Assembly (NCBI GenBank): GCA_030248295.1
Contig: JASANH010001170.1
Coordinates: forward strand, 62,001-126,000
Direction of reading: 5' to 3'
DNA length: 64,000 nt
From: Mesodorylaimus sp. YZB2_4
Lineage: Eukaryota > Nematoda > Enoplea > Dorylaimida > Dorylaimidae
Part shown: positions 7,798-64,000 of the stretch, piece after piece
Layout of the letters: every line of letters starts with the position of its first letter
Position numbering within the stretch: the stretch's first letter is position 1
Position numbers and translations under genes: made by a program
The notes under the pieces: model-generated
Databases searched by the model: none
What the model was told of the DNA's origin: nothing
The model's input: the letters and a program-made list of their open reading frames with translations, nothing else

Positions 7798-10700
7798 ATG
7801 CACAACGGTGCCACTCGAATTCGACCAGCAACATTCGCACCGATGGTCGAGACTGATACGGCAGTGAGCCTGGGATTTTTCAGTGCAGTACAGAGCAATG
7901 ATTTGGAACGAGTTGCTGAGTTTATTACGACTACTACAACCCCACTTTTAGAAAATCGAAATGAGGTAGGTGGGATTTCGAAATGTGGGTAGTGGATAAA
8001 TAGGATTTCCTAAATATGTGTGATTTCGAATAATTCGATTGGTAAACTATATTTTTTAGACTGGCGAGACTGCTTTGATTGTGGCGTGTCGATTAGGCTA
8101 TCATACTTTGGCGAGATTACTTGTTCGAAACGGAGCCGATATTGGTGCCAGAGATTACGTAAGTGAAAGTCACGTGTCCCATGTACGAGGGGGCATGCGA
8201 AAAATTCCCGGAATGATGTTCGCATCGCAGAAGTGTGAAGTTCATGCACAGGAGATGGTGGCAGTTTTGTATAGCAACAACACTGTACCTGTTTCATCGC
8301 ATAACTTTGCCTGTTCATCTTTTATGTGACGATTTTGTAGTGCCGTATTGTACTCGTAGTGCCCTCGTAGTGCCGTATTGTACTGCGCTGTAAGTGAGCT
8401 GTGACATGTGACAGATGTTGCACTAGGGCCGTCTGCACTTGCGGCTTCAGTCACGGCTATGGTCCACAACCCTTTCCAGCTGGGGTCCCTATCCTTTTCC
8501 GCAGAACACGCCTTTCGAAACGAACGTGACATTTTAGGAATACTGGAGTGGATTGCTCAATGCTGCTCGAAATGGCTTCGTGGAAATTGTTCAGCTTTTA
8601 CTCGATTCTGAAGCCGATATTGAGGAAGCGGATATTGTATGCTCTTTTTTTGTCTGTATTGAAATTCCGATTGCAATCTGCAATGCGGGTATGTTTAGGG
8701 TGGATTCACTGCTTTGGAATGGGCATGTTATAAAAATCGATTACCCGTCGTTCAACATTTGATCTCACGCAATGCCAGCGTGAATATTGTGGATGAGGTA
8801 GGCGAATTAGTCAGTGGCTGATTACTGCATCACCCTTTCACCGTGTTTTTTAGCATGGCATGACTCCGTTGAATTGGGCAGCGGCCAGAGGATATGACGA
8901 AATTGTACAGGAATTGATCGATGCCGGAGCACGTGTCAATGCTCGAGATCGAGTAATATTCAGTTTTTTCTTATTTTTAGAATATGTATTTGACCTTTTG
9001 TTTCAGTTTGGCAACAGTCCGTTGGTTTGGGCGTGTCGGAAAAGTTTTGTGAACGTAGCATTGGCCTTGATCAAGGCGGGAGCATCTGTTGATGTGGTCG
9101 GGGTGGTAAGACATATCAGGCTTGGTTATGAACGATCATTAGTGGTTGTGATGTTTTTTTTGGAGCACGGGTCAACGCCGTTGATTCTAGCATCGAAGGA
9201 AAGCAGCGTGGAAATCGTAGAGGCTATACTGAAGAAAGGATGTAATGTGAACGCTGTTGATCAGGTAAGCGTCAGCCACCCCTGTATAGCTCAGGAATAG
9301 CAGTCATTATGTTTCAGATTGGGATGAGCGCCCTGGCACACGCATCGCACGAGGGATGTTTGCCGGTATGTGCATCTACTGCAAAGATGGACTTTTTGTA
9401 TCTTTGATCACATATTTCAGATCGTGGACATGCTATTGGACGCGGGTGCCTACGTGAACGTAGCAGATAAGGTATGTGCTAAGGGACCACTCTCTGGATC
9501 AGAGACATGTCTTGAATCTGAGAGCGAAGGGCCACGTTTCATTGCGATCTGGGTGAGGCCGTTACCGAAAGGGGTCTTCTATCATAAAATGCAGTCCTTG
9601 CTATTTTAAGAAGCGGTCGAGGGCGGGAGTATTTGAAGATTTTCTAAGGCCACAATTGCAGCAGGAACTTATCCTACATGCTGAGACTATCGGCGTTCTC
9701 TCTGATTGTGAAAACAGGCCAATTAGGGCTCAAATTGTGGTTCCATTTAGAAAAGAGATACCATACTCATGAAGGCGGTAAAGAGCGGTCAATCGGATGT
9801 GGTGCGATCACTGCTGCACAAGTATGCTGACTTGGATGCGCAGGATGAGGTACGTCCATTGTGCTGTGCTGGGACCATATGGTGTGAAGTGGTCTGGTTA
9901 CTTGAGTGTATGCACTTTTTGGGTAATAAGGATAAGCAAATCGTAAATGATGGTTGCAGGAAGGAAGGACCGTGTTGCACCTTGCCATAGACAAAGGATA
10001 CTCGGAAATTTTGGCCATGCTTCTGGAATGTAGGCCAAATACTGAAGTGAGGACAAAGGTAAGTGGGAAGCATCTTGATAAGTTAGTGTTCTCTTTAGCA
10101 TGCAGATTCTAGGACGGCGATACAGCTTTGCTGCGAGCCGTTCGTACTCGAAACGTCTTCATGGTTCAGTTACTGGTACAAGCAGGAGCGAAGGTGTCTG
10201 CTGTTGACCGAGTAAGGAAAGCTGATATTTGCGTTTGGTGCTCCGCTTATGGCCTTGTGTTTATTTTCAGCGCGGCGACACCAGTTTGCACATTGCGTTA
10301 CGTTGCCGTAGCAAACGTTTGACTCAACTCTTGCTGACACGACCTCAAGATAGCCGTCTGTTGTACCAAGCTAACAAGATCGGGGAAACTCCCTACAGTA
10401 TCGATCAAAGCCATACTCAGTTGCTCTTGCCACACATTTTCGGTAAGTGAAGATTTGATCCCATGCGACACATTACGATCAGCTTGTTCCTTTTAAGGCC
10501 CTGGCGAGTCCCAAGTACAAACCGAAGCCATGTTGGGTTATGATATTTATAGTAGCGTAATGGCCGACATCATGTGCGAACCGAATTTGTCGTTACCATT
10601 GACGGTAGGCCTGTACGCTAAGTGGGGATCGGGCAAATCGTTTTTATTGAATAAGCTGAAGGGTATGTCTGGGTTGGTTGGTTAGCGGTTTTTGATGCAG

Positions 10701-13700
10701 CTTCTTATGTTTTTAGAATCGCTCGGTCTCTTCTCGCATTCCTGGTTGGAAACGAAAACGTTGAAATGGTCGTGGACATTGGTCATGATCATAATCCTGA
10801 TCAGCGCCTTTATATCAGCCATCGTGTACGGGGTATCGTTCGTTGGAGTAAACAATTGGCTGATCGCCCTGTGCGTTGGACTGTGCTTGAGTTTGATCGT
10901 GGTCTATTGTTACGGTAAGGGGTCGATTTGGATCTAATCGTAGGTTGTTTATGTTGTAATGGGGGTTTTATTTTAGCTTTTGTGGTGTACGGGAAATGGA
11001 GCTACTGTCGACTGGCTAGAGGTTATTTGGCTCGACCATACGCGCTTTTCCAACTGACGGCTCAGATTTTGTTTTATCATCCACCAACGTTAACGGAAAG
11101 AGATTTGGTGTCGAGGCCTGTAGGGTAAGCGTTTTGATTGGATTTGAAACTTTAAAAGACTATGATCTGGCGTTTTCAGATTCCTCTTTGCGGACTATCA
11201 TCGGCTGTCGAGTATCGGCGGTGCTCAGGCGTTGGCCAATATCATCGAAACATTGTATAGCGAACTTGAGCAGCATTACGGGACGTTGCCTGTGCGATTG
11301 AGTCAAACATTCCAGCCATCGTATAGTAAGTTGCTGCGACTAATGGGTCCCCGCTGCAAGGCTGGATTTGCTGGGATAATATAAAGTACCCTGGCGAAAC
11401 GTCAGTCTGAATATGGCAGTCTCTGTCTGGTCGCAGGGTAAGATGCGTAGGTTTTGTCCACTAAAACTCCCACTGCAAGGCTGGGCTTGCTGGGTTAGTT
11501 GAACGTAGCCTGAAGAAATAGCAGTCTGTTTATGGTAGTGTCTGTCGAAGGGTCGTAAGACCGGGCGCCCTGTAGTTGTAGGTGGTGTCAAGCGTGTGCT
11601 CAGGGGCCACTGCCACGCGAACTACGCCTTGCGCGCTGAGGAAAAGCCAATGAGTGCGGATTTTTATCAGATCCATTACACAGTGAGTGAATTTCTGTGG
11701 GAACCTCAGGGTGGTCTTTTCAGGTGGTCAACGGCAGCCGGTGATGAAACGATGGTGCGGCATTCCAGTGGCGATCGTGTGCACTATTTTGACCTTCCTC
11801 AGCTTGATCGGATTATACTTCTGTATGATCTACTCGTCGACACATTTGCACACTCTACAGGCCCCTCAAACGTCGACCGAATCGTCTTCTCCACCGCAGC
11901 AGTCCTCAACGCAACCGTTCTTGGTGACTGGTGGTATATTGCTGTTCGTCGTTTTGGTCTTGGCGGCGTATCCGTTGGCCATGGCGTTCGCGCATTTTAC
12001 GTTTTTACGTCCGAAAGCTCAAATCAGACGAGCTGTGGCTGCTTTAAATCGGCTTCAATTCGAAGGATTGATGCAGAAATTGAAGAAGGAAGTGACGAAG
12101 ATTACGGAAGTGGTGCATCGTCTGGACAGCTTCTCGAGGAGTCAGACTCGAATGTAAGTCCAGTTGATAAGCCAAGTTATCTGTTGCTGAAAGTGGGTCA
12201 GAAATTGTTTGTGGGGCATTCGGATTATCTTCGATGAGTGGGAGGTCATCGATTTTCCTTGGCCCTTGGCAGATTTTCATCCAGCCAAGCCACGGGGGGG
12301 GGGGGGAGGGGGTACGCCTAACCTGATGACGGTTTTCTGTCTCGCTTGAAAAAGAATGTGTCGAGCGATTAATCATGCCAGCCTCACAAATAGGCCCCTG
12401 CTGCAGAACGTTATGACAAGCCTCTTCGTTGTTTAGGGTGGTGTTTGTGGATGGTTTGGACAGCTGCGAGCAAGATCGGATGTTACAAACGTTGGATGCC
12501 ATTCAAATTTTGTTTGGAAGCAAGCAAAATTCACCTTTTATCGTCTTGATCGCAGGTAAGGAATTAAAGTGTTTTTTCATTGCATCATAATGTTTTTCGA
12601 TCATAATTATATTTTTTGATTCAGTGGATCCCCACATTGTGGTAACGGCGATTCAGCAAGCCATGCATAGCGCTTTCACAGCGACGGATATTTCTGGCCA
12701 TGACTATTTGAAGAATTTGATACAAATGCCATTCTATTTGCAAAATACGGCTATTCGAAAATTACATGACAAATTGAGAGAGAGATCGGAGAGTGGCAAC
12801 GATGGCCGGTTTGCTGTAAGTGATTTGTGAACCCTGCCGTGTTAGGATAAGGCCCGGGTGCTGGAGGGGATAGGCACATTTTCCCGCCATTTTTTAATTT
12901 TGATTTTTCTGAGATCGTACATGAAAAGCTTCCTGTTTCATCGTAGAATGTTCTGGGATACGGTCGACACTGTTTTCTCCCCGCCTTCCTTTGAGCCGGG
13001 TCTCGTGGCTCGTGGAAGTCACCCTGTGTGTGCATGTGATGATGGATTCAGAGAAAACGAGTGAATTATCTCTAGTCATGGAATGTTTCTTTTGAATGCT
13101 CTCAGTTTTTCTGAATCCATGATCTTTAAAGTGGGTGGAACATGCAAGGGACAGAGGGGAGAGGTGGTGAATCAAGTACAGGTAGGGGACAATGACAATG
13201 ACTTTAGATGACCAAACCAAGCCTAGGTGTGCTCCCCTTCCCGCCCACCATGCCCATACCGAACTGTATGACTGTATTGTGCTCTTACAGTACTTGAGAC
13301 AAGATACGGCTTTTGGTTCAAAATTATCGATTGCCGAAAGCTACCGCAGCAGCACCCGAATGCGACGAGCGTTTTCGCAACAGCTGCACGTGCAAGACGC
13401 GTTCAGCCAACGATTCGTTCGGGATGACTATTTCAGTAATATTAATCCGCGTAGCATGCGTCGCATTGTCAATACGTTAGCATTGACTGGTGAGTTGTCG
13501 AGGGCGTGAGGGATCAATCCTCCTTGTAAACTTGACTCGATAACGGCCGGCACCCAGTGCCCGGCCCCTGGCCCTGTGCCGCCCCAGTTCCCATGAGACT
13601 TCCAACCCATATTGCCTATACGGTTGGTAAAAATACTTGATTTGAATGCGTATGCGTATGCGTATACGCAAAGTCTTCCGAATGCGTATGCGTATTGCGT

Positions 13701-16700
13701 AATACGCAAATTGCGTACTACACAAAGTATGGCTACAAGTTTGCGTATTGCGTATTTTTTCGTGGTCGGTTTCTAGCCCCGTACTGTAACTAACCATGCG
13801 TCCGTCGCTAAAATTATCAGCGACCATAGCAGCTGCAAGGTCATTTTGACATGGCAGTACATTTTGCTGCCGCTTATGGCCAGCTTTAAAAGTCCGACCG
13901 GAAAAATTCCTGTCAGCTTCGATCATGGATTCTTTCCGAGTAATCTCAGCTCCCATCCAATCAATGCCTTAATTGCCATGAATATTTTCAACGCGGTACT
14001 TTTTGAAACACTTGTTCAGCACTGGCGGAACATGCTATAGCCACGAGGGCACAAGGTGATATTTAGCCATGTATAACACAAAAAACCTTGCGCAGACTTT
14101 GGCTTTGAGGCCGCAGACCTGAATGACTGATAAGTTTCTTTGACATAACATTCTAGTCCAGCGTTTGGAGGCTTGCAGTGCAGCGGCCACACGCTCACAA
14201 AACATTCCTAAGACTCACAAGAAGAATGCTAAGACTTTCCAGATTTCCTGCACAACTTTCGGATAAGAACTCTTACATCAGATAAGAATTTTTAGGAATG
14301 CTTGCCAAAATTCCTATTGGATTATAAAAACAAGTACTACATAATGTACATGAGAAATCCTTACCGAAGGGGCTAAATAAATTAGCGCAGTCACATATCG
14401 CCACAAACTAAGTATCATACTCACTCCTTACCGTCGACCCTGGATAGGGACCACAGCATGCAAACTTGCACAAAAACCTTCTCTTTATGCTGGGGGCTTT
14501 ATGAGGCTTTTATGGGAGCTTTATGGCGACATGCAGAAGAATCATAAAAGTCAAAACAAGAAGTTTAAAGGAGGATTCTGTACAGTATGGTAGCCCTTCC
14601 ATCTACGAGCAAGCCAGTTTAAACTTGAAATGAGGCATGACTCAAACACGCAGATGCCTTACAGACAATAACTCTGATCATGAGACAAGAAATATGGATT
14701 AATAAGAGGATGTGAGCACATTGTCTCTATCTATCGTCGCCATTGTTTCGAAAAAATGCGCGGCTTTCTATGATTTAGCTCAAGCTGCTTTTATCGGCGT
14801 ACGCATTGTATGTATTGCGTACAAGCCAGTTTGCGAATGCGTACATGCGTACATCGGTTAGAATGCGTTTGCGTATACGCATCCAAATTTCAATGCGTAA
14901 TACGCAAACTTTGCGTATGCGTATTTTGTACGCAACCAACTGTAATTGCCTATGCCCAGCCAGCAGTCATGATACGATAAGATCTCCATTCGATCTCCTG
15001 ATGATCCATATGATCCATATGATATGATCTCCACTAGGAGCACCTCCACGCGAGGGCATCCTGTGCCAGCACCAGAGTCCCAGGATGATAATGGGCGAGA
15101 AGGGAGGGACCTTCCCGACTGGTGCTCCAGAACCAGTTTACTGATCCTGTACTTGTGCAGCGTCCGGCACATGACGGTATTGGGTGAGTCGCTCAGAGCA
15201 AGGTTAGCGACGGATTTACTAAACTTCCGTCGAAGACCGGTTTTCACTCACGCTGAGAACGGGCTTACTTAACTGCCGTCCTCAGCTGGATGGAAGAAAA
15301 CTGCGGCCTCCCAGTCAGGGCTGCTGGACCAAGGCCTTGACCAATGGAGCCACCACGGCTCGTCCATACGTTCAGGTGGGCCATACATGGTGGGGTGTAT
15401 GTGGAGACATGCATAATGGGTGTGTATGGAGGCTGCCTCGTAAATGTAGCCAAAAAAATAAAGCTCCCTCAGTTTTCACTGTAGAGAAGTCAGCAACGCA
15501 CCTGTGGATGCAGGATTGAGTGTTCGTTTGAGTGCTTTCGTCCAGCCTCGGGTATCTTTGTAAAGTCAGTCAAGCTACTGCATAAATCTCCCGCGGTGGT
15601 GCAGTGATACAGTGCTCCACCTGTACTGCGAAGTAGCGAGCATCTGAACTCATCCTGGGTTCAATCCCTGGTGACGGAGGAAGGTTTATTGTAAAACCAT
15701 TAGCCCCCGCTGACGCCCGGCCGTGGGTGGCTCAGTATCGTCGAGGTGCTTCGAGTGGGGGAGACGGAAGTCAAACGAGACAGTCTCGGCAGTCGAACAC
15801 CAGCCGGGTTCGCAGCCCGCCCGCCTCTATCTGAGGGAGTCGATGTCCTGTCCAGGATGCCCTTGTGTGGAAGAGCTAGGGCCAAAAAGTTTTTTAAAAC
15901 AGACTTACCACATAAAAAAGCATCAGGTTTAGGTGGGATGAGTTATTATTTGGGGTGAATCTCTCAGAATCCCCTCTGATGGCGCCAGTTCCAGTCCATC
16001 GTGTTTGCAGACTGTGGCATTTGGTATCTGTACTGTACTTATTTGTAGGACGTCTCATGCGCGCGTTCGAAATCGAATTCAATTGGGTTGCACTCGGACA
16101 TTGGGTGAGCTTGGTTGAACAATGGCCTTATCGTCTTTCGTGGATTATCGATTATTGCGAACGACAGCAGCCGAGCGAGAATGTCAGTCTGCACGAAATT
16201 TACGAAATGTAAGTGTGCTGTGGAAGGCCTGGTGGGAGGGGTGGCCCGCCACTTGAATTTGAATTTACTTTCTCTGTACTTTCCAAAACGAACATGCGAC
16301 AAAAGACCGCTGTCGATTAAGTTCATTCGTTTTCTTTGAATCTACAGTATCATGCAATTTTTTAATAAGCTCCAGAGGCAAGGAAACAGGGACCCTTGAC
16401 AACTTTAAACTGAGCAAGGAAGGAGTATTTGGTCTGTGTTCGTCCACGATGCCCGTGCACTGCTTACATGTCTTTTTCAGTATCAAGCATAAAATTCCGG
16501 CGGCGAAATCGGAAGATTCGTTGATCGAAATCGATAGAAATCATCGAAATTTAGAAGTGTATTTGGAGAATAGTCGGGATCCGGTTTTGAATGCTGGACA
16601 TTTGAAACAGTTTGTTCCGTTTACTTCGAATTTAGATCCTTATGTTAAGAAGTTGATACACGGTGAGTTTGCTTGAATTTTTTGTGCTTGTTGGATTGTG

Positions 16701-18141
16701 AGCTTGGCTTGTTGCAGAAAGATACGACAGTGCTTTGACTTCGATCGGGGCTCCTCAAGATGCGTGTGACATCGTGCAACAATCGTTGGCCCAGCAAGCT
16801 CCTTTGGGCGAGGATAATTCGAGATCGGCGATGGTGGAAATTGCACCGGGTGTAGAATCGACGTCCTTGGTGAATCCGGTGTTCGTTGCCCCAGTGGCGC
16901 AACCGTTTCAAAGGAATACGACACCGCCGAATCGAGAGCGCATGCCGATGGGATTGGAACAGTTTTTTAAGGTAAGATTAATTTTAGACAGAAGAATAGA
17001 AAGGAAAAATTTGTGCTTACAGGACTCGATTTGGCAAGTGCGACTTAGCTGTTTGTCAGTGGATGAAGTGTGCTCGTTGATTAAACGATTACCAGTTTCG
17101 AGTTCGTCGACGACCGAGGCATTGTGTCAACGATTTCGAGAGATCAATGCATCGGGATTGGTTTTGTCTTTTTGCGAGTTGGATAATTTGAAGACGGAAC
17201 TGCGTGCGAATTTTGGTGATTGGGAATTGATCGCTTTGATGATTCGTACATTGCGTGCGAGAGAACGAGATTACGGAATCGACGACATGCAATCGCGGGC
17301 GCAGTCGATCGAACCAGCCGTGGTGGTCCCGGTTAGGAAGTACAGTTCGGGTTTATCGTCCGTACTTGGAGTGGGTCACGCGATCGTCAATAAACGCCGT
17401 GCCACGTCGGCGAGAACGGCTGGACGTAAGAAAACGGTTAGCGGAAGCGGGAATACGATCGATTATAATTCATCTTCGGATCACGTGGCAGAAGTGGTGG
17501 CTCAGCAGGATTGGCTGCACAATCGATTGGGACATTTAGATTCGACTGAATTTATCGGCGATCGAGATTTGGTCGATTCGACGCCAAGAACGAGTCGCCG
17601 ATCGTCGATGATAAGAGAAGAATCGATGGGTTTGCCATCGGAGACGAATAGTTACGAGGATGTGATGAGTCCAGTTTCGAGTCTCGCATCGCCTGGTTTA
17701 TTGACGCGGGATTTATCGCCATCGATTCCGCACGGAGGAACTTCAAATGTGTCCGTACAAACGGGAGGCGTTTTGATGGCGCCTGGTCAAACTGCAACTA
17801 CGGAAGAAGCAAAATCGAATTTGGCTCATCGATTGAAAGGATTGGTTCAATCGATCGGAGGAAGGACGGATGAGACGGGCCGATTGCTGGTCGTGCAATC
17901 GAGTGATACGGATGACGAGGATGAGAAGGCGCAGTTGACGGTGAAGAAGAAACCGGAAGTGGAATCGAGACCATCCGTCTTCCAAATGGTTCAGACGACG
18001 AGAGCGGCCAGTGTGCCCAATGTGAATACCATCGCTGCTGACACGTTGATGGAAATGGGAGAGATTATGACGGCCACTTCGAGCGAACAGACAGCGCCGT
18101 CGGACATGTCAACGACTACGGGCGCCCATAGCCGTTTTTGA
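7798..18141 (+). CDS. Kidins220: Kidins220/ARMS homologue: ankyrin repeats, KAP P-loop NTPase, SAM-like domain
   Basis: A 25-exon gene encoding about 1546 aa, membrane scaffold of neurotrophin, ephrin and PKD signalling in animals. Exons: 7798-7965, 8060-8158, 8538-8636, 8699-8797, 8854-8952, 9007-9105, 9166-9264, 9318-9365, 9421-9471, 9751-9849, 9960-10058, 10113-10211, 10271-10442, 10498-10662, 10717-10914, 10977-11124, 11180-11325, 11724-12153, 12437-12555, 12625-12815, 13291-13489, 16049-16208, 16481-16662, 16718-16971, 17023-18141. Order: about eleven ankyrin repeats; KAP domain with Walker A (KWGSGKS) interrupted by four membrane helices in two pairs; Walker-B-like [30 protein letters not shown] and FNWVALGHW...EQWPYRLSW, both close to the vertebrate protein; then a SAM-like region ([14 protein letters not shown] to [11 protein letters not shown]). 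The Ser-rich tail ends GAHSRF and lacks the C-terminal PDZ ligand known from mammals. Confidence 0.93.
11345..11568 (+). repeat. Two-copy tandem repeat in a Kidins220 intron
   Basis: Two units of about 100-115 bp follow each other, each starting near CTGCAAGGCTGG and TTGCTGGG and ending with a TATGGCAGTCTCTGTC- or TATGGTAGTGTCTGTC-like segment plus GGTAAG/CGTAAG. They diverge at roughly one base in four. No coding content. Confidence 0.5.
13619..14944. mobile_element. Non-autonomous hAT-like element with TGCGTA-rich ends
   Basis: The 1326-bp element starts TACGGTTGGT and ends ACCAACTGTA, an inverted terminal match of about 10 bp with one mismatch. It is flanked by the perfect 8-bp duplication ATTGCCTA (13611-13618 and 14945-14952). 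The first and last ~150 bp are packed with TGCGTA/TACGCA words in both orientations, as expected of subterminal transposase-binding sites. No transposase ORF is present. An 8-bp duplication plus short TIR is typical of hAT; membership is inference without a transposase. Confidence 0.7.
14945..15130 (-). repeat. SINE part right of the hAT-like insertion
   Basis: Continues the SINE sequence interrupted at 13618. It shares CACCTCCACGCGAGGGCATC and the CCAGCACCAGAGTCCCAGGA segment with the copy at 826-985. A short ATGATCCATATGATC-type simple repeat interrupts it near 15000. Confidence 0.55.
15200..15350 (+). repeat. Interspersed repeat shared with 2695-2840
   Basis: Contains GAACGGGCTTACTTAACTGC, CGTCCTCAGC and ACTGCGGCCTCCCAGTCAGG in the same order as the earlier copy. 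Confidence 0.5.
15590..15890 (+). repeat. tRNA-derived SINE, nearly complete
   Basis: The head reads CGCGGTGGTGCAGTGATACA (box A-like) and, about 60 bases on, GGGTTCAATCCCTGG (box B-like), the internal RNA polymerase III promoter of a tRNA. The body (GGCCGTGGGTGGCTCAGTAT, TCGAGGTGCT, CCAGGATGCCCTTGTGTGG) matches the other copies. It lies in a Kidins220 intron on the gene's own strand. Confidence 0.7.
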
Positions 18142-40224: not shown

Positions 40225-41066
40225 ATGCCTCTAGAATTCGTGCGAAGTCAGAAAAGCCATGATCAGCTTTTGCATAACGGGTGTATCTATCGAAAAGAAC
40301 GTTCTATTGGAGAAAAAATCGACTGGAAATGTAATTTTTACAAGCAAAGCAAAGGCCACTGTTCGGCCCGAATGCAAACAGCCGGAGACGCGATCACCGC
40401 CGAGGCGAGTTGAGAAATTTAAATCCGAATTTGAATCCGCAATCGATAATGACCGATTTCGAGCTTGCATCAATCAACAGCTTTGCCTCGGAGTTTCCCA
40501 ATGCAGCACGCCACGGATGCTTTTTCCATTTCTCGCAGTGTGTATGGCGCCGAATTCAAGTAACGGGATTGCAAACACGATACGCAAATGATGAAGATTT
40601 TGCGCTCCAAATGAGAATGTTGCCAGCTCTAGCGTTTGTTCCGCCACCTGGCGTCGTCGATTCTTTTGAGGAATTATCCGATCATTTGCCCGTCGAGGCG
40701 CAGCCCGTCGTCGATTACTTTGAGGACACGTGGGTTGGTAGACCAAATCGGCGAGGAGTGAGGCGTAATACAATATTTCTAATTGAACTCTGGAACTGCC
40801 ACGAGGCAATAACCATTGGTCAAGCGAAGACAAACAACTCAGTGGAAGGTTGGAACCGAGGATTTTTGGAATTGGTCGGGGCACATCCAACGATATTCAA
40901 ATTTATCGGATCGTTGAGACAAGAGCAGAATTTAAACGAAACAAAAATTGGGCAGTACGTCGCTGGTCATCAACCTCCACCAGGACGCCGGCGTTATCGA
41001 GAATGTGCGGAGCGAATTCAACGTATCGTTGCCGACTATGATAAGAGAAATCAGATGGATTATTAG
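40225..41066 (+). pseudogene. FLYWCH-MULE transposase, internally deleted
   Basis: A FLYWCH zinc finger starts MPLEFVRSQKSHDQLLHNGC, continues with YRKERSIGEKIDWKCNFY and ends near CSARMQT. It stops at 40413. The next frame opens at once with the C-terminal half of a MULE transposase: MTDFELASINSFASEFPNAA, GCFFHFSQ, LWNCHEAITIGQ and NNSVEGWN. About 200 residues usually separate these two parts, including the first catalytic Asp, so the middle has been deleted and the protein cannot be active. The ATG of the first part lies in the MITE's target duplication. Confidence 0.75.
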
Positions 41067-45097: not shown

Positions 45098-46140
45098 AAC
45101 AACTGAGTCATAGTTGACCTTTACTCACAATGTTTATGCCCCCTTACTCTTCTAGGTATCGTGGACTGTTTTTTTAATTACGATGCACCTGCTGATAGAT
45201 AGACCTCGACGTTAAAGAAGTGTCTGAGCTGTGTATTAAATCGTTAATTTAGCTTTTCCGACGCGCGGGGTGCTGATAATAGCAAAAACCTTTTTTCAGC
45301 TGAAAGACGCCTTTCAAAGCGAGAGAGATTTTTGGCTTTGACTGAAACGTTTCGTAGAGGGGTCATTTCAGATGCGCAATCCCGTAGCGATGTCATAGCG
45401 CGAGGAGGTTCATTCCATGAGCTACCTTAATCATGGTCATCCAAGAGCCCTATGACGATAAGCGCTTATTTACGTATGAGCGAGCCATGGCAACAGTTCT
45501 CGTGAGCGCGCAGCAGCTTCTCCGCGATCCATAGATGGTGCGGTATGGCGAAGGCGAAAGTAAATTGAAAAGCGATCTGGACAAGAGACACGAAGTTGGA
45601 TAGGTTGATTGTGATCTCGTGAGCACATTTTCACCTGCTCGTCCTTCTTTATCGTCGGGCTTCGTTGTCCCACGCACCATGGTCCTATGCCATCGGCGAG
45701 TACGCGTTCATATTTGGAATGAGTTGAAGGCGACCGAATGCCAGCCGATGCAAGTCTCACGTTTCTTGGATGAAGGGTAGAAGTTCTCACAAAATGGATC
45801 CGTCACTTGTCAGTAAAGGAGAAATGATGCAGATGCTAGTTAGTTCGTATTGGACGCCTACCGACGCCGTCTCTGTCCGAGTGCGCTCGAGTGTTGAAAG
45901 GAAATGCATTTGGACGAGGAAGCTTCTTACATATGTCACTGACATTTTGGAATTTACTCAAAGTGCTAATATTTTTTTATTCCACATTTTCGAATCGCTA
46001 ATTACTGACACTAGGTCGGCGGCTGGTGATAGTCGCCACCATTTCCGTTACCTCCTGGGGTTCGCGAATAACAAATTATCGCTATCGGCCTTGCGAGTCT
46101 GCTTATGGCTTATAGAAGAAATAGGGTCGGCTCGGCCGCG

Positions 46141-49100
46141 ATGGCCGACCGAGACGACTCGCTTTTTCCGAGTGATCACGCGCGTGTATTGAACGAAGGA
46201 AACAGCAGTGAGAAAAAGCATTTGGTAGATAATGAAATCGTGGGTGCAGGAAACGACATTCGTGAGGATAGACATCGTAGGGTGAGTTATACGGATTTTG
46301 ATGTGGCCGTGTATGCGTCAGCAGTCGCTTCGAAACTTCCGATAGCACCAGCCAACTCCGTCGATCACCCATCACGACCTTCTTCTACCACACCCAATCC
46401 TTTCCTGGTGCATTCGCTTAGCAGACCCAGGAATTCGCTAGTTTCTCTCGCTTATTCCGGACAAAACGTTTTTGGTACATCGACTGACGACTATGATGAT
46501 CGATTGCCTCGAGTGTCTCCCATGTTCTCGGAAGAATATCAACGAATGCCTGTAGCCGCGACCAAGCATCCCCCTTATAAACACTTACACGAGACTTCGA
46601 GCGTCGAGTCGAACGAAACCCCTCCATTGGAGCGCGTAGGACGGGGCTCGCCTGCCAAGGCCTCCCCTCACAAAGCCAATTCATTCGACATCCGTTCCAG
46701 TAATTCCAGCTTAACCATGAGCACTACGGCAACAGACATTCAGAAAAGCGGTCTGCATAGGCCCGCTCCCCACGGCCACCTCAGCCATGGCCATCAACAG
46801 TCGTCCAACGATGACGACATGGACGCCCAGCAGGGGGACCTGACCTACCATCCCAACTCGCCACTCTCGCCCAAGAAGCCTATGATCTTCGAGCGGGGTT
46901 CGAGTGGTGCCGGCAGCGCGAATCTGCTTAGAGTCCCCGATAAGGCAGCTTCTATTGCGACTGCCGCTATCACTGGATCGATGCCGGACCAAGCTAATTC
47001 GAAGATGGCCAGCGTGACCTCGACAAATAATGAAACTCGGGTTCCTGATTTGGAAAAAGGCACTCTCTGCGCCAATGGTGGAGCCATTCCTCGATTAAAT
47101 AATACTTCGGGGAACGAGAAGACGGGTGTTTTTATGAACGACGACAGACGCCAGGTTGATTTCATACTGGTCTATGAACAGAGTAAGATGTGAAGCTTGG
47201 TCGGGAAACCTATGCAAGTTACGAGCTACATACTCGAGATGATTTGGATCGCCCACTGAAGCCTTATAGTTTGACCTTAAGTTGCCCCGCCTGAGAACCC
47301 TTCCAGAGGAAAGTAAATGCGCCTACAGTAATCTCAACTCTTGCCCTCTATTCTAAACTTGACCCAACTGAGCGCGCCATGCCTCGTTTCAGATCAATCG
47401 ACTTCAACTGAACGTCAGCGTCGATATTTCGAGACCAATCTGCAGCAGGAAGGTCTCATACTGGAATCGGACGATGTAGACGCTGATGACTTGAATAATA
47501 AACTCTGTTTTGTGCGAGTGCATGCCCCTTGGAACACTCTGTGCCGATCGGCCGAGATGCTGCACATGAAGATGCCACTTCGGAACACGGAACTGCCCGA
47601 TCTTGAAAATTTGGTCACTATCAGTGCATCGGGTCTTCTCGGCACAATAAGCGAGTACCTATTTTCGACTTGGTGCGATTTCAACGACACTGAGAAGATA
47701 CTGATCGGACAAGGATCGAAGCACGTGACAGCTCAGTTCACGCGCGCCCGCATGGAGAAATTTCTAATTCACGATCCCGACACGTTCTTCACCCCCACGC
47801 AAAGAATTCGCATAGTTTATGAAATTATGCAAAAAGCCAAATGCGATCCGGATAATGGAAAGAAGAGAGGGGTGCAATGGCTGCTCAAAAGCGGGGTCTA
47901 TACTGCGGCTTATCCTATTCATGACGGAGAGGCCGAAACACGTCATTTAAGTACAAACGAGCCAGGAAAATGGAGTCAAAGGCAAATATTGAAACACACC
48001 TGGGCTAATTTTAATCGATTATTCAAAAGGCAACCATTGAATTTAATTAGAGCTTATTTTGGTGAAAAAATTGGATTCTATTTTGCTTGGTTAGGTAAGA
48101 GTTGAAGTTAGCATTCTTAGCAGTCTACAGGTAAAACTAATTTCAGGATTCTATACTCAAATGCTTATATTTCCGAGTATCGTGGGTGTGATATGTTTCC
48201 TGATGGGCGTGTTCTCCTTGTCCTCCAATCCTCTGGTCGTAGAAATGTGCGACGATGGGCATATGGATGAGCGACTGATCAATGTGACCATGTGCCCCGT
48301 GTGTCGCCTCCCGAACTGTCGGCCGTGGGCGTTATCGAAAGGATGCGAAAGTGCTCGGTGGAATTATCGATTTGATAATGAATCACATGTGATCATGGCC
48401 GTATTCACTCTTTTATGGGCAACTGTATTTATGGAACTATGGAAACGAAAAGAAGCCGAACTGGCAGCCGAATGGGATGCCTACGATGCAGAACAGGGTG
48501 ACGAACCGACCAGGCCTGAATATGAAGCGCGGACGAAATCGATACGAATCAGTCCCGTCACGAACGAAGAGGAACCTCACGTGTCTTCTCTTCGACGAGC
48601 GCTATGGTTAGCTGCATCGAGTGCCGGGGTGTTTTTGTTGATCCTATCCGTTGTGCTTGCACTGATCGCTTTGATCGTTGTCCGTATCGCCATCTATGGA
48701 TTGCTGGCTGACTGGGGTGGATTGTGGGAAGATTACAAATTCGAGATCGCCAGTTTGATCATCCACGTGTTCACATTCGTCGTAGTTATGACCTTGGGCA
48801 CCATTTACGAGCCGACTGCCCACAGACTGACTGAATTGGAATGTCCAAGGACCCAAGCCGATTATTTGTCTAGCTATATTTGGAAAGTGTTCATATTTGA
48901 GATCCTCAATAATTTTGTACCTATTCTCTACGCTGCTCTAATTCGAGGTCGTTGCTCGCTTCCCCACACTCAAGACTGGCTGACCGAAATGTGCGATCCG
49001 GGTGGATGTCTGAACGAGGTGGTTCAAGCCATTGCCATATTGTTATTGGCTAGGCTCCTGATCAGTAACGCGGCCGAAGTGGGCGTCCCGTTTTTGAAAA

Positions 49101-51159
49101 GTTTGTTAAAATCGAAAGGACTGGGAAAGATGACAGTGCACCCGGATAATGAGCATGATAACAGCGCGTGGAGAATACCCAGATGGCAACGGGACTTCGC
49201 ATTGAACGAGCCCGAGTTGGATGGAGTGTATGCCGAGTACTTGGTAAGAGGCATTTCTTGGTTGTGGACAACTGGAAGCGCGAGCTTGTCAACACACTGA
49301 TATGGCGCGCCATTCTGCATATGTATAATTGGTCTGTGATCAGGGCTGGCGATGGGTGGGGAGTAGCGGGCGCATTCTCAATCTTCTCCTCTTCCTTATG
49401 ATGCACCGAGATTCAGGGGCCCTCTGTAACCCCCCGCCTGGTAGGCCATGGCGAGTGGGAGAGAGTAATCGATACTCTCCCCTGGCTGGGAAACGTCAAC
49501 CCCTCGGGTTGATGTTTCAGCCGTAGGTATTGTCGCAAGACTTGCCTGCTCCAGTCGGAGTGTTTATCCCCCCGACTTCGGTCGGCCGCCTTCCTCCCAC
49601 GCCTGCCAGGCCTGGTTACATTGGCGTCACGGACCTTGGGGCCATCCATAGTGGTGTAAGTCCCCGTCGAACCGCTGGGTGCGCCCATGTTCGTCGCGGT
49701 CTGGGGCGTTTAGACCAACACTGGAATGGCCAGCCTAGCCAGCTGGTCCCAGTACCGTCTGCACTGCGGAGGCAGTGTGAGGTCGGCCCTTTTGAGGGGG
49801 GAGGTCTTCCTTCCGGGAAGAGCGACGGGGTCGTCGCTTCTTCTGTCGATGGGAGGAATGTAACCCCCCCCCCCCCCCCCTGGTAGGCCATGGTGAGTGG
49901 GAGAGAGTAATCGATACTCCCCTGGCTGGCAAACGTCAACCCCTCGGGTTGATGTTTCAGCCTTAGGTACAGTCGCAAGACTATCCTGCTCCAGTCGGAG
50001 TTTTTGTCCCGCCGACTTCGGTCGGCCGCCTCCCTCCTACGCCTGCCAGGCCTGGTTACACCTCTCACAGTCCGCATCTCGATTTCAGGAGATGATGGTC
50101 CAATTCGGTTACGTGACCTTGTTCGTTGCAGTTTTTCCACTGGCACCCCTCATTTGTTTGCTCAATAATATCGGTAAGTCATTGTGTCTTCAAGCCCATT
50201 TGTTTACTACTTGCATATTTTTAGTGGAAATCCGCATCGATGCTACCAACTTTGTCACTTCTTTCCGACGCCCCCTGCCAACCCGTGTTTCGGGTATACG
50301 CATATGGAGACGGTGTTTAAACATAATTATCAAACTATCGGTCCTTTGTAATGGCGCATTTCTAGCATTTACCAGCGAATTCATACCCACATTGGTGTAC
50401 CGATACTCAGAATCGAGTGATTATACGACCAATGGCTACATGTGGTGGACCATGGCGAGGATGAATACTAGCGACTGGTCAGATTATCACAATTTTGACG
50501 ACAGCGAATTCTGCTACTACCGTGATTTTCGTGACGACTCCAACGAAAGAAAACTGATTTGGTGGCAGATTATGGTTGCTCGATTGGCTTTCTTTGTCGT
50601 ATTTGTCATTACATTTTACTTCATTCAATGGCTTTGCGATTTCCTCGTTCCAGACGTACCTACCCACGTGAAATTGAAAGTTGATCGAGCAAATTTCTTA
50701 GCTAGGCAAGCTCTCTATGGTCAAGAAACGAGTGGAAGGAACAGTGCTGGTTCGGGTGCTCGTCAAAAAGGGCATTCAGCCTTCCCTCGTTCTGCAACGA
50801 ATAATCGAAGAGCAACTGACTGGACACTTGAGACCACTCTAGCTAACCCCGATCATGATCGGCCATCAGCGAATGGTCCAATGCCCAAAACCAAAACTGT
50901 TGCCCAAGCTTCCGAGTCCCATGCCAATGGTTTCTTGGCTAATGGTAACGGGCATGTGATCAAAAATATTGAAGAAGACGGCGAGTTGGAAGAAAGTCAA
51001 CAGGATGACCGTTGGCAGTGTGCCAGTGGACAGAACCCCAATCTGCATCCTAATCAACTACCGACGTCTCCATTGCATCAAAAATCTATGCGTCGCGTGC
51101 ACGGTGCCAGCAATTTTTCTCGTCTCAAGCGTGATCAAACCGAAACCAGCAACGTTTAG
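46141..51159 (+). CDS. Anoctamin (TMEM16) family membrane protein
   Basis: Exons 46141-47182, 47393-48094, 48147-49243, 50089-50173 and 50225-51159 give about 1286 aa, longer than usual (900-1000). Anoctamins are Ca2+-activated chloride channels or lipid scramblases. A Ser/Pro/His-rich, probably disordered N-terminus of about 340 residues precedes VDFILVYE and the anoctamin dimerisation region (RRYFETNLQQEGLILES). The channel domain includes LIRAYFGEKIGFYFAWLGFY, DPGGCLNEVVQ and MMVQFGYVTLFVAVFPLAPL. It ends with LLNNIVEIRIDATNFVTSFR, where the E and D match Ca2+ ligands of the eighth helix in TMEM16A. The C-terminal ~170 residues are polar. An upstream in-frame ATG at 46105 is possible; 46141 has better context (GCGATGG). 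The 845-bp third intron carries two MITEs. Confidence 0.92.
49426..49619 (+). mobile_element. GTAACC-ended MITE, subfamily B, copy 1 in anoctamin intron
   Basis: Runs from GTAACCCCCCGCCTGGTAGG to GCCTGCCAGGCCTGGTTAC, inverted at the ends. Interior marks are GAGAGTAATCGATACTCTCC, CAACCCCTCGGGTTGATGTT and GACTTCGGTCGGCCGCC. Copy 2 is nearly identical and in the same orientation. Confidence 0.75.
49860..50059 (+). mobile_element. GTAACC-ended MITE, subfamily B, copy 2
   Basis: Same as copy 1, roughly 90 % identical, with the 5' C run expanded to about 18 C. The ~240 bp between the copies is unique in this window. It ends 30 bp before the next anoctamin exon. Confidence 0.75.
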
Positions 51160-61124: not shown

Positions 61125-62244
61125 AGGCGTTATAGTACTTTGAGACGTAAGTGACTGGCGTCGCTTCTTGAGTAGCGCTTCGATCGTTCTCGGTAATAGT
61201 TTTAGTCTGTTTCAATCCGAAAAGCTTTGACGTGCTGCCTGATGTGCTGTGCTGATGATTGATGTACTGTTTGAACGTGAAGCGTTTACAAACATGTTCT
61301 GTGATTTTTGTATTAAGTTAGGGTTTGTCGAGGAGTCTGAGCCTATGGACGCTAGTTAAATTTATGCGTCTCCTCTGTATGTGACATCTGCGTTCAATTT
61401 ACTGAAATACATTGGCCACGCTGAAAAGACACTCCACGCAAAAGTGCATAATCACAACAAATACATCATTGTATGAGCCTATAGTCACACAAAAATATGA
61501 ATACTGAATACAAACAAAGTGGATCCTACTGTAATGTACTTACTGATTAATACATAACAGGCTGTCACATATTGCTTTGCTTTATACTGTGACTCGTCAC
61601 ACCCAGTGGACTCCACTGCAAGCGGCAGTCACAAAGGACCTCAATGTCAGCCTAAAAAGACGCCCTCAATCCCTTTACACTCACTCAAACAGTCTACTAC
61701 AAACAGCCCTTTACACCACCTTTACAATGCGCACTGCGTGAACGCTTTTTATTTTACACTTAACACTGTGTGCGCGCTTTCCACTTTACACATTACACTG
61801 CCTATGCTTAACCTTTGTGCCACAATACCTTAAGACCTTACTTGACCTTAAGTGCGAGGGGGTACGCTTATACTACTATTTTCCATCACCGGGGATTGAA
61901 CCCAATACGAGCCGCCATTTGCTACAGAACAATGCAAGTAGGAGAATCCCGAACTGCTGTACCGCCACTACCCTATCTTGTGCAAGAGCAGGTTTCCCTC
62001 TGCACTAGTATATACCGTACCTAGATCAAGACACTTCGTGTTAATCTCAACGCAGGTACTCGCACTCGTAGTCACCAAAAATTTACAGTGTAGCCAAGGG
62101 ACTGTACTCGTTTATAAGAATCCAAATTTAATTCTCATCCGGATACAATTACGTATTGCGTCCATCTGAATAGACAGACACTGAAAGAGTCACAGCACAA
62201 CGCATCACAGTTCAGCGAGTCAGCCACTGGTTCTCGATCGACCG
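61125..62244. other. Intergenic; SINE head
   Basis: Contains a minus-strand SINE head at about 61880-61985. Otherwise AT-rich without supported ORFs. Confidence 0.45.
61880..61985 (-). repeat. tRNA-derived SINE head
   Basis: On the minus strand, GGTAGTGGCGGTACAGCAGT followed by TCGGGATTCTCC and TTGGGTTCAATCCCCGGTGA show box A- and box B-like parts with the same spacing as other copies. Confidence 0.6.
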
Positions 62245-62591
62245 TCACTGGGGGCTCTTGGGCTGTTGACGCCGATGAGGCTCCCGTAGAGTCAGTGCTC
62301 CCGGCGGTACGCTCCCGAGAGGACTCGGCAACCACCATCGAAATCTGGGAATGAGCCGCCTTCCGAATCGATTAAACGGTGTCCTTGGTCGCGATGAACG
62401 CATCGACTGCGAATCACTGAAAAACGATTGAATGATATCTTCTCAAGGAAAGGCGTGCCGAGCACGTACCGTCTTGGCCAGCGCTGATGGCGTGATAAGA
62501 ACAAGTAAGCCGCGCTGTCGTCGAACACGAGCAACAGGAGAAAAATTACGGCGAGCATTGTCACCCTTCCCTCACGCATCATAGACGCCAT
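62245..62591 (-). CDS. Candidate RFamide-type neuropeptide precursor
   Basis: Two minus-strand exons, 62591-62470 and 62416-62245, separated by a 53-nt intron (GTACGT...TTTTTCAG), give 97 aa. A signal peptide is evident: MREGRVTMLAVIFLLLLVFD then DSAA. Dibasic sites divide the rest: ...RHQRWPRR, then DSQSMRSSRPRTPFNRF followed by GRR, then a longer spacer to PHRR and QQPKSPQ. Cleavage at RR and conversion of the Gly would release a 17-residue peptide ending RF-amide; this processing is established for animal neuropeptides. Without splicing, the frame runs on through unrelated sequence and the RFGRR site is lost. The peptide does not fit a named family that I can place. AACATGG is a fair start context. 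Only one active-looking peptide is present. Confidence 0.6.
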
Positions 62592-63310
62592 GTTATTTCG
62601 TCTGTTCTGGCCTCCTCGAGCCTCAGAATTTACGCCGTGGCTTGTTTGTGTTCTCATCCATGCTAACGAGATTTCTGACATTATCCGATTACGGATGAAC
62701 GAGTGATTAAAGCCTAAAGCATGGGCGACAACCCATCGCCACTCCTCAGCGCGGAGCCGATTTGCGTCAATGACAAGAATAGAAGACAACAAGGTTGCTC
62801 CAGGTTGTAAGAAATCGGATTGCCATTAGCCACGTGCTTCCGAACTCTCCTTGTACTTATTCTCCCCCCCCCCCCACCATCCTGTTTGGCAGCGGGGGCC
62901 TGTTATTGCCCTCATCCTGTCTAAACTACACTTTCCCCCCAATTTAGAGGATGTTGACCGAATGGCGTGAGGGACGCCAACACGACGGACTGCGGATATG
63001 TCCATATTCCTGGAGGGGTGAGCAGGTTGATCTTCGGCCTGATCGGTGGCATAAGCATCCCCAGAGGGCAGCCTGCCAGCGAGCCAACACAGCGACCAGG
63101 GCGCAACGCCTAAGGCGTCCCGCGGAGGCGAATAGGGCTTTGATCCTCACTTGTTGCCAAGAAGCAGTTTACGATTAGGGGGTCGAATATGTTCGGGCTA
63201 TCAGCACAATTGCCGTCATCAGTTGCTGGGTGTGATTATGGCATCCACGACTGGAAGGAATCGACGGAATGATTTTCTACCCTCAGTCCTGAACTCGCCG
63301 GCAGAAAGCC
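62592..63310. other. Intergenic between the two small secreted-protein genes
   Basis: Divergent promoters of the two flanking genes may lie here. A C run of about 12 lies near 62865. No other feature recognised. Confidence 0.35.
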
Positions 63311-63611
63311 ATGTTGTGCTGTCGCGCACTCGTATTCTCGGCCATTTTGACCATTTCTTGCGCTCAAGCAGCACGACATCCTGATGTCGCGCCATGCAAG
63401 GAAGCTTGGTAAGAGTCCTTATTCGTGCTGACAGGGTCCTAATGAGGGCGAAACTGCTTCCAGGAGAAACAACTTGTTAATTCGAGCTGATTGGATGGAC
63501 CCTCGAGCTGGTATGCAAGTCGTGCAAAGGGAAGCTCGTTCGATACTCATCCATGCCACTCTGACGGCGGCAAAGAAAAAGATCAAGAACAGGCCGACGA
63601 AGCAAGAGTGA
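63311..63611 (+). CDS. Candidate small secreted protein
   Basis: Exon 63311-63408 encodes MLCCRALVFSAILTISCAQA (a clear signal peptide) and ARHPDVAPCKEAW. After a 55-nt intron (GTAAGA...TTCCAG) the exon 63464-63611 continues RNNLLIRADWMDPRAGMQVV to KKIKNRPTKQE and stops; 81 aa in total. There is one Cys after the signal and a basic KKKIKNR run that could be a processing site. No family recognised. An alternative donor at about 63511 could extend the gene downstream. Confidence 0.4.
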
Positions 63612-64000
63612 ACTGGGAACGCCTACTTTGGTGATTAGGGCGCCTACTTCTAATTGACCGCACTGTATACGGGTCCATGTAACTGTTACGGGTATACTGC
63701 ATTTCTCTGGTGAGACCAGGGTCTGCACTCATGCACGCAGATGTCCAGATGTTTGAAGGAAGCCAGTGTCCTAACACCTTTGGTCTCCCTGACTGTACCA
63801 TCTTGAATGAGTTCAAATCACTCATTTGCTCTCTTTCTTGAACCTATCATGCTTGGTATGATTGGCCATGCGGGTTGAGATCACGCCATGTTATCGATAC
63901 CCGTACGTGGGGCCAGTGGACACGGGGATATGTCATTCGCTTGATAGACAAGAGTAATTGCAGTCTGCCTCTTACAGATTGCCTGCTGGGTGTGTGTGCG
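63612..64000. other. Right end of window, nothing recognised
   Basis: No supported ORF, repeat or RNA gene was seen in this stretch. Confidence 0.4.

Follow-up and report, generated by a model that had tools for sequence, protein, structure and literature searches.

A predicted spliced gene on the minus strand

The window, by which we mean the whole 64,000-nucleotide stretch of DNA that was analysed, carries on its minus strand a small predicted gene that the unspliced open reading frame conceals. Left unspliced, the frame runs to another terminus and gives 99 aa; removal of a 53-nt intron gives 97 aa in which a hydrophobic leader is followed by PRR, the 17-mer DSQSMRSSRPRTPFNRF and GRR. The original prediction had described this arrangement, and its coordinates and translation proved exact. 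The full order of the spliced translation is MASMMREGRVTMLAVIFLLLLVFDDSAA / YLFLSRHQRWP-RR-DSQSMRSSRPRTPFNRF-GRR-LIPRFRWWLPSPLGSVPPGALTLREPH-RR-QQPKSPQ. The features discussed below are the following, where C123 is the contig of the window and its duplicate, and C9 the contig that holds a more distant paralogue.

62245..62591, minus strand: predicted two-exon peptide precursor gene, 97 aa, a GT-AG-spliced open reading frame ending in TGA
62470..62591, minus strand: exon 1 of the spliced frame, 122 nt, with the MAS- start, the hydrophobic leader and a first spacer, YLFLSRHQRWPR
62417..62469, minus strand: predicted intron of the spliced frame, 53 nt, phase 2, GTACGT...GTTTTTCAG, its ends kept in the duplicate
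62245..62416, minus strand: exon 2, 172 nt, with putative peptides between basic pairs and the stop; its frame is backed by the C9 match
62365..62415, minus strand: putative 17-mer DSQSMRSSRPRTPFNRF, an amide if processed; read from the sequence and absent from the C9 paralogue
62356..62364, minus strand: GRR, a possible amidation Gly and dibasic site, kept in the duplicate and absent from C9
62275..62355, minus strand: second putative peptide, LIPRFRWWLPSPLGSVPPGALTLREPH, between GRR and RR; its core is the conserved part
62293..62337, minus strand: core WWLPSPLGSVPPGAL, with WWLPSPLGHVPPGPL as its C9 counterpart in a 15-codon comparison
62269..62274, minus strand: RR closing the second peptide, read from the sequence; C9 reads RRK close to the corresponding position
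61883..63760, (.): duplicated segment, the whole gene with its flanks; inverted copy at C123 ~157.2-159.1 kb

The window frame is open 5′ of the ATG (177 aa from stop to stop), and the MAS start is proposed because in the C9 paralogue the MAS is preceded by in-frame stops. The leader is likely to comprise residues 1-28, with cleavage predicted after SAA; the -3/-1 rule was used to place this point. Its hydrophobicity, taken as the best 11-residue Kyte-Doolittle mean, is 3.57, compared with 3.21 for the C9 paralogue. Among the GT-AG introns listed (35-159 nt, donors at CDS positions 60-199), the 53-nt intron has in our judgement the most nematode-like ends. Alternative introns also link the leader to RFGRR, for example one of 59 nt giving 95 aa and one of 86 nt giving 86 aa, and the exact join in the window is therefore a prediction. 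Read without splicing, the intron contains SFNRFS, which resembles the FNRFG of the exon and is probably a coincidence; the intron of the duplicate reads SFSRFS.

The duplicate, the distant paralogue and the shared core

We searched the organism's own genome (145 Mb in 1067 contigs, the one nematode included) with the window protein and obtained six matches: the two exons of the window gene, the two exons of a second copy, one match on C9 and one on C130. The C130 match was set aside, being not significant (E 0.05, 40% over 48 aa) and missed by a query with the core; it is reported without stops, and a reading of its stated stretch gives a stop-broken frame with no resemblance. A match on C144 to the second exon of the C9 gene (E 1.45, one stop) was also set aside. 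The gene is present at three loci, namely the window copy at C123:124245-124591, its inverted duplicate at C123:158420-158766 and the distant paralogue at C9:545676-546046.

The duplicate, ~1.9 kb long and 34 kb away, aligns over 1910 columns at 94.66% identity. Piecewise searches of 62000-62591 and 62592-63900 recovered just these two copies, and on that count we rejected the idea that the 1.9-kb unit stems from a mobile element. Substitutions number 1/122 in exon 1, 4/53 in the intron and 4/172 in exon 2, with 34/1155 in the 5′ flank and 14/361 in the 3′ flank; there are no gap columns in the exons or intron, compared with 47 in the flanks. Divergence of the coding sequence (5/294) is not significantly lower than that of noncoding DNA (52/1569; Fisher p 0.19), and the coding differences comprise one silent and four amino-acid changes (R40T, I63V, Q91P and Q92R). 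The first of these turns the upstream site PRR into PTR, while FNRFGRR (62356-62376 in the window), in which the C-terminal RF-Gly is followed by basic residues and any amide is putative, is unchanged. The duplicate is too recent to inform on the conservation of this block. A short repeat-like stretch occupies the 3′ edge (61870-61990) of the duplication and has four weaker copies elsewhere at 75-78% identity. It contains GGTTCAATCCCCGG, which we take to resemble a tRNA B-box; no tRNA was called in this stretch.

The C9 locus is more informative. The segment C9:545870-546043 matches the window protein at E 1.4e-4 in the one-genome search, and the reverse search with its second exon, in which residues 10-41 of the 58 are aligned, recovers both C123 copies (E 1.3e-4 and 1.4e-4). 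The exon plan can be read as that of the window gene: a MAS- start, a leader, a phase-2 intron at the matching place and a second exon containing the core. Exon 1, which lies in another frame, starts MASPTGTSFLFCVAVGVLVVATVRG and ends LLLKRAS, and the modelled intron (56 nt, phase 2, GTAAGT...TATTTTAG) joins it to AKTIKKSNRVGGPSTVLQWWLPSPLGHVPPGPLARQGPRRKASEVRP... In this splice model one donor was tried and the acceptor was picked as the most nematode-like, so that the join is predicted; two AAG acceptors also preserve the frame and the core, and a third in-frame acceptor skips the core.

Over the best local protein alignment the window and C9 proteins are identical at 15/24 residues. What they share is the sequence WWLPSPLGxVPPGxL, which adjoins the RFamide-like sequence on its downstream side and is flanked in each gene by basic pairs, as read from the sequence (GRR and RR in the window, KK and RRK in C9). 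Of the 15 core codons compared, five are identical, eight differ synonymously, including AGT/TCG for Ser, and two differ nonsynonymously. Such a codon pattern is typical of a protein sequence conserved in the predicted frame and, because the changes are mostly silent (8 vs 2), it indicates that selection has kept the peptide neighbouring the RFamide. The phase-2 intron model that C9 has of its own, together with the silent changes, backs the splicing as well as the reading frame of exon 2, and with them the proposal of a spliced, leader-bearing, minus-strand precursor with basic pairs. A degenerate search for WWLPSPLG without mismatch hits three places in the genome, which are the three gene loci, and a blended core query of 26 aa recovers these and no further locus. 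With one mismatch allowed there are 24 matches, compared with 2 for the reversed control; 21 of them carry the mismatch and were counted untranslated, and 16 of these share one repeated sequence.

In C9 the place corresponding to FNRFGRR reads SNRVGGPS, with neither RFG nor a Gly-dibasic site. Conservation of RFGRR among relatives had been set as the test of the original prediction; in C9, the sole divergent relative available, the block failed it, and the core is conserved instead. A degenerate search of the genome for FNRFG followed by two basic codons gave 10 matches, compared with 7 for the reversed control: two are the C123 pair, and none of the other eight, of which four were translated and four judged by their matched letters, encodes FNRFG with two basic residues. 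The RFamide is known just from the two near-identical C123 copies, and we rejected it as the defining product on its absence from the C9 paralogue. The NR-G shared by C9 and the window may be a remnant; the window and C9, being one sequence pair, are compatible with gain of RFG and with its loss.

What the gene may encode

We take the locus to be, with a probability of about 0.6, a small nematode gene of two exons that encodes a secreted precursor of the NLP type, the conserved product of which would be a Trp/Pro-rich peptide. Of the original claim of an RFamide precursor, the proposal of a secreted and spliced precursor survives and the RFamide as defining product falls, for want of RFG in C9. 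We infer transcription and splicing of the gene, with a neural origin of the product, and entry of the protein into the secretory pathway, where signal peptidase would remove the leader. A proprotein convertase would then cut at the basic pairs, and the selected product would be the peptide around WWLPSPLGxVPPGxL (LIPRFRWWLPSPLGSVPPGALTLREPH in the window, SNRVGGPSTVLQWWLPSPLGHVPPGPLARQGP in C9), which would most likely act after secretion on a receptor at the cell surface. The segment preceding it ends FNRF-G-RR in the C123 branch and, if amidated, may additionally yield an RFamide. The likeness to nematode NLP precursors lies in the small size, the putative leader, the peptides between basic pairs and a taxon-restricted motif. 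The NLP survey PMC8764417 records nlp genes that C. elegans lacks as well as recent duplicates among nlp genes, and shows that both lineage restriction and recent duplication are ordinary for such genes in nematodes. The gene differs from the survey in that the survey's main text contains none of the strings PPG, PLG, WWL and WLP (PMC8764417).

Could RFGRR and a leader have met accidentally, in a chance open reading frame or a pseudogene? A crude rule that asks for a hydrophobic leader, an intron of 40-120 nt and RFG[KR][KR] finds one case in the real window and a case in 1/60 dinucleotide shuffles, and shuffling the residues that follow the leader produced RFG[KR][KR] in 373/200,000 trials. 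The motif combination by itself is modestly unusual; it is weak in a whole-genome scan, where chance cases are expected. Nor does codon usage support coding, in tests that are small (97 codons). The spliced frame has a synonymous codon bias of -0.087, which is lower than the 5th percentile (-0.052) for 18 control chunks of five window ORFs read in their true frame and lies inside the 5th-95th percentile range (-0.108 to 0.076) of 90 wrong-frame values; each of the five remaining frames of this spliced stretch scores higher (-0.077 to -0.001), and on a first codon measure, which mixes in residue make-up, the spliced frame ranked last of six. These results, with the lack of a significant purifying signal between the close copies, would suit an accident. 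What makes that very unlikely is the ungapped coding sequence of the duplicate beside 47 gap columns in its flanks and, above all, the C9 paralogue: it is because this shares the exon plan and differs in the core mostly by silent changes that we place the gene above chance.

A true RFamide precursor of the FLP type, in which DSQSMRSSRPRTPFNRF-amide is active and the downstream part a spacer, would account for the PRR and GRR that flank the 17-mer and for the identity of FNRFGRR in the duplicate. Parts of PMC11658156 indicate that several known flp genes encode one peptide each and that FLP precursors contain conserved non-RFamide stretches, so the conserved neighbour alone does not exclude an FLP reading. 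We nevertheless regard it as unlikely, because the divergent C9 paralogue has neither RFG nor Gly-dibasic and yet conserves the supposed spacer, and because PTR replaces PRR in the duplicate. The residues before RF are a further difficulty. In the broad sense given in passages of PMC4058706 an FLP is any peptide with a C-terminal RFamide, whereas the narrow FaRP rule found there is X1-X2-RFamide with X1 generally aromatic and X2 hydrophobic. Phe at X1 fits the narrow rule and Asn, which precedes RF at X2, is not hydrophobic, so that FNRF, its amide being putative, would be an FLP by the broad definition and not a FaRP by the narrow one; the main texts of two FLP surveys contain no instance of the string NRF. 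Compared with nematode FLP precursors generally, the window protein is alike in its predicted C-terminal RF-Gly-basic-basic and flanking basic pair, and differs in the Asn before RF, in having a paralogue without RFG and in having its conserved part elsewhere. About as improbable is a secreted peptide of non-neural function, such as a cationic antimicrobial rich in Trp, Pro and Arg or a secretion of gland or epidermis. The window copy is indeed rich in Arg, Trp and Pro, but its Arg-rich stretches are not conserved in C9 and the core is without Arg or Lys. Pfam has no match for the window or the C9 protein at E up to 1, which is neutral between neural and non-neural readings.

A larger claim, which we put forward only tentatively and think rather doubtful, is that WWLPSPLGxVPPGxL defines an undescribed family of nematode peptide hormones in which a neighbouring spacer newly became an RFamide in one branch. 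If this were true, one precursor would carry two unrelated messengers and the locus would give a direct view of RFamide origin outside FLP genes. Under the preferred reading, too, the core offers a concrete motif with which to search for what may be an unrecorded family of nematode peptides, and should relatives show it with and without the RFamide, gain or loss of an RFamide inside an unrelated precursor would become tractable. Short intron-bearing peptide precursors easily escape gene finders. The locus is also a warning that a textbook-looking RFGRR beside a leader need not be the conserved product.

SIFamide has the motif PPFNGSIF and the C-terminus SIFamide. The original prediction had heard in PFNRF a faint echo of this arthropod peptide and held it to be another one, and so it appears: PFN alone is common to the two, and the window peptide ends FNRF-G. 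PDB sequence searches gave no credible relative, their lone match (a MON1 chain, E 1.4) being noise, and pattern scans of viral and prokaryote contigs gave 24 and 43 matches, none confirmed, as expected. Among open-access main texts, no paper was found with the longer motif strings, and PFNRF led to unrelated subjects only.

Genomic surroundings

Peptides between basic pairs are encoded elsewhere in this genome, since flp-14-like K[HN]EYLRFGKR repeats are present. K[HN]EYLRFG repeats lie at two C393 loci and one C25 locus, a distribution that suggests local amplification of flp-14; a further flp-14-like match on C74 (69%) was not confirmed on reading. The nematode cuticle-collagen N-terminal domain (Col_cuticle_N) has 133 matches in the genome, which together with the flp-14-like repeats identify the host as a nematode. 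The canonical SL1 22-mer has 0 matches in the genome at up to one mismatch, for which an early-branching clade, a divergent leader or an assembly gap are alternative explanations, and the SL2 RNA family likewise gave 0 genome matches, as did the control of that search.

Within the window, an anoctamin (TMEM16) gene at 48095-51159 is marked by strong Pfam matches in two large ORFs, with a sub-threshold match to the dimerisation domain just upstream of it (46072-47193). A fragment of a MULE-type transposase lies at 40335-41066 (E 8.7e-6, slightly short of the Pfam cut-off). Ankyrin repeats at 8854-9300 and a KIDINS220-type SAM-like domain at 16702-18141 lie on the same strand, and 8854-18141 is perhaps one KIDINS220-like gene.
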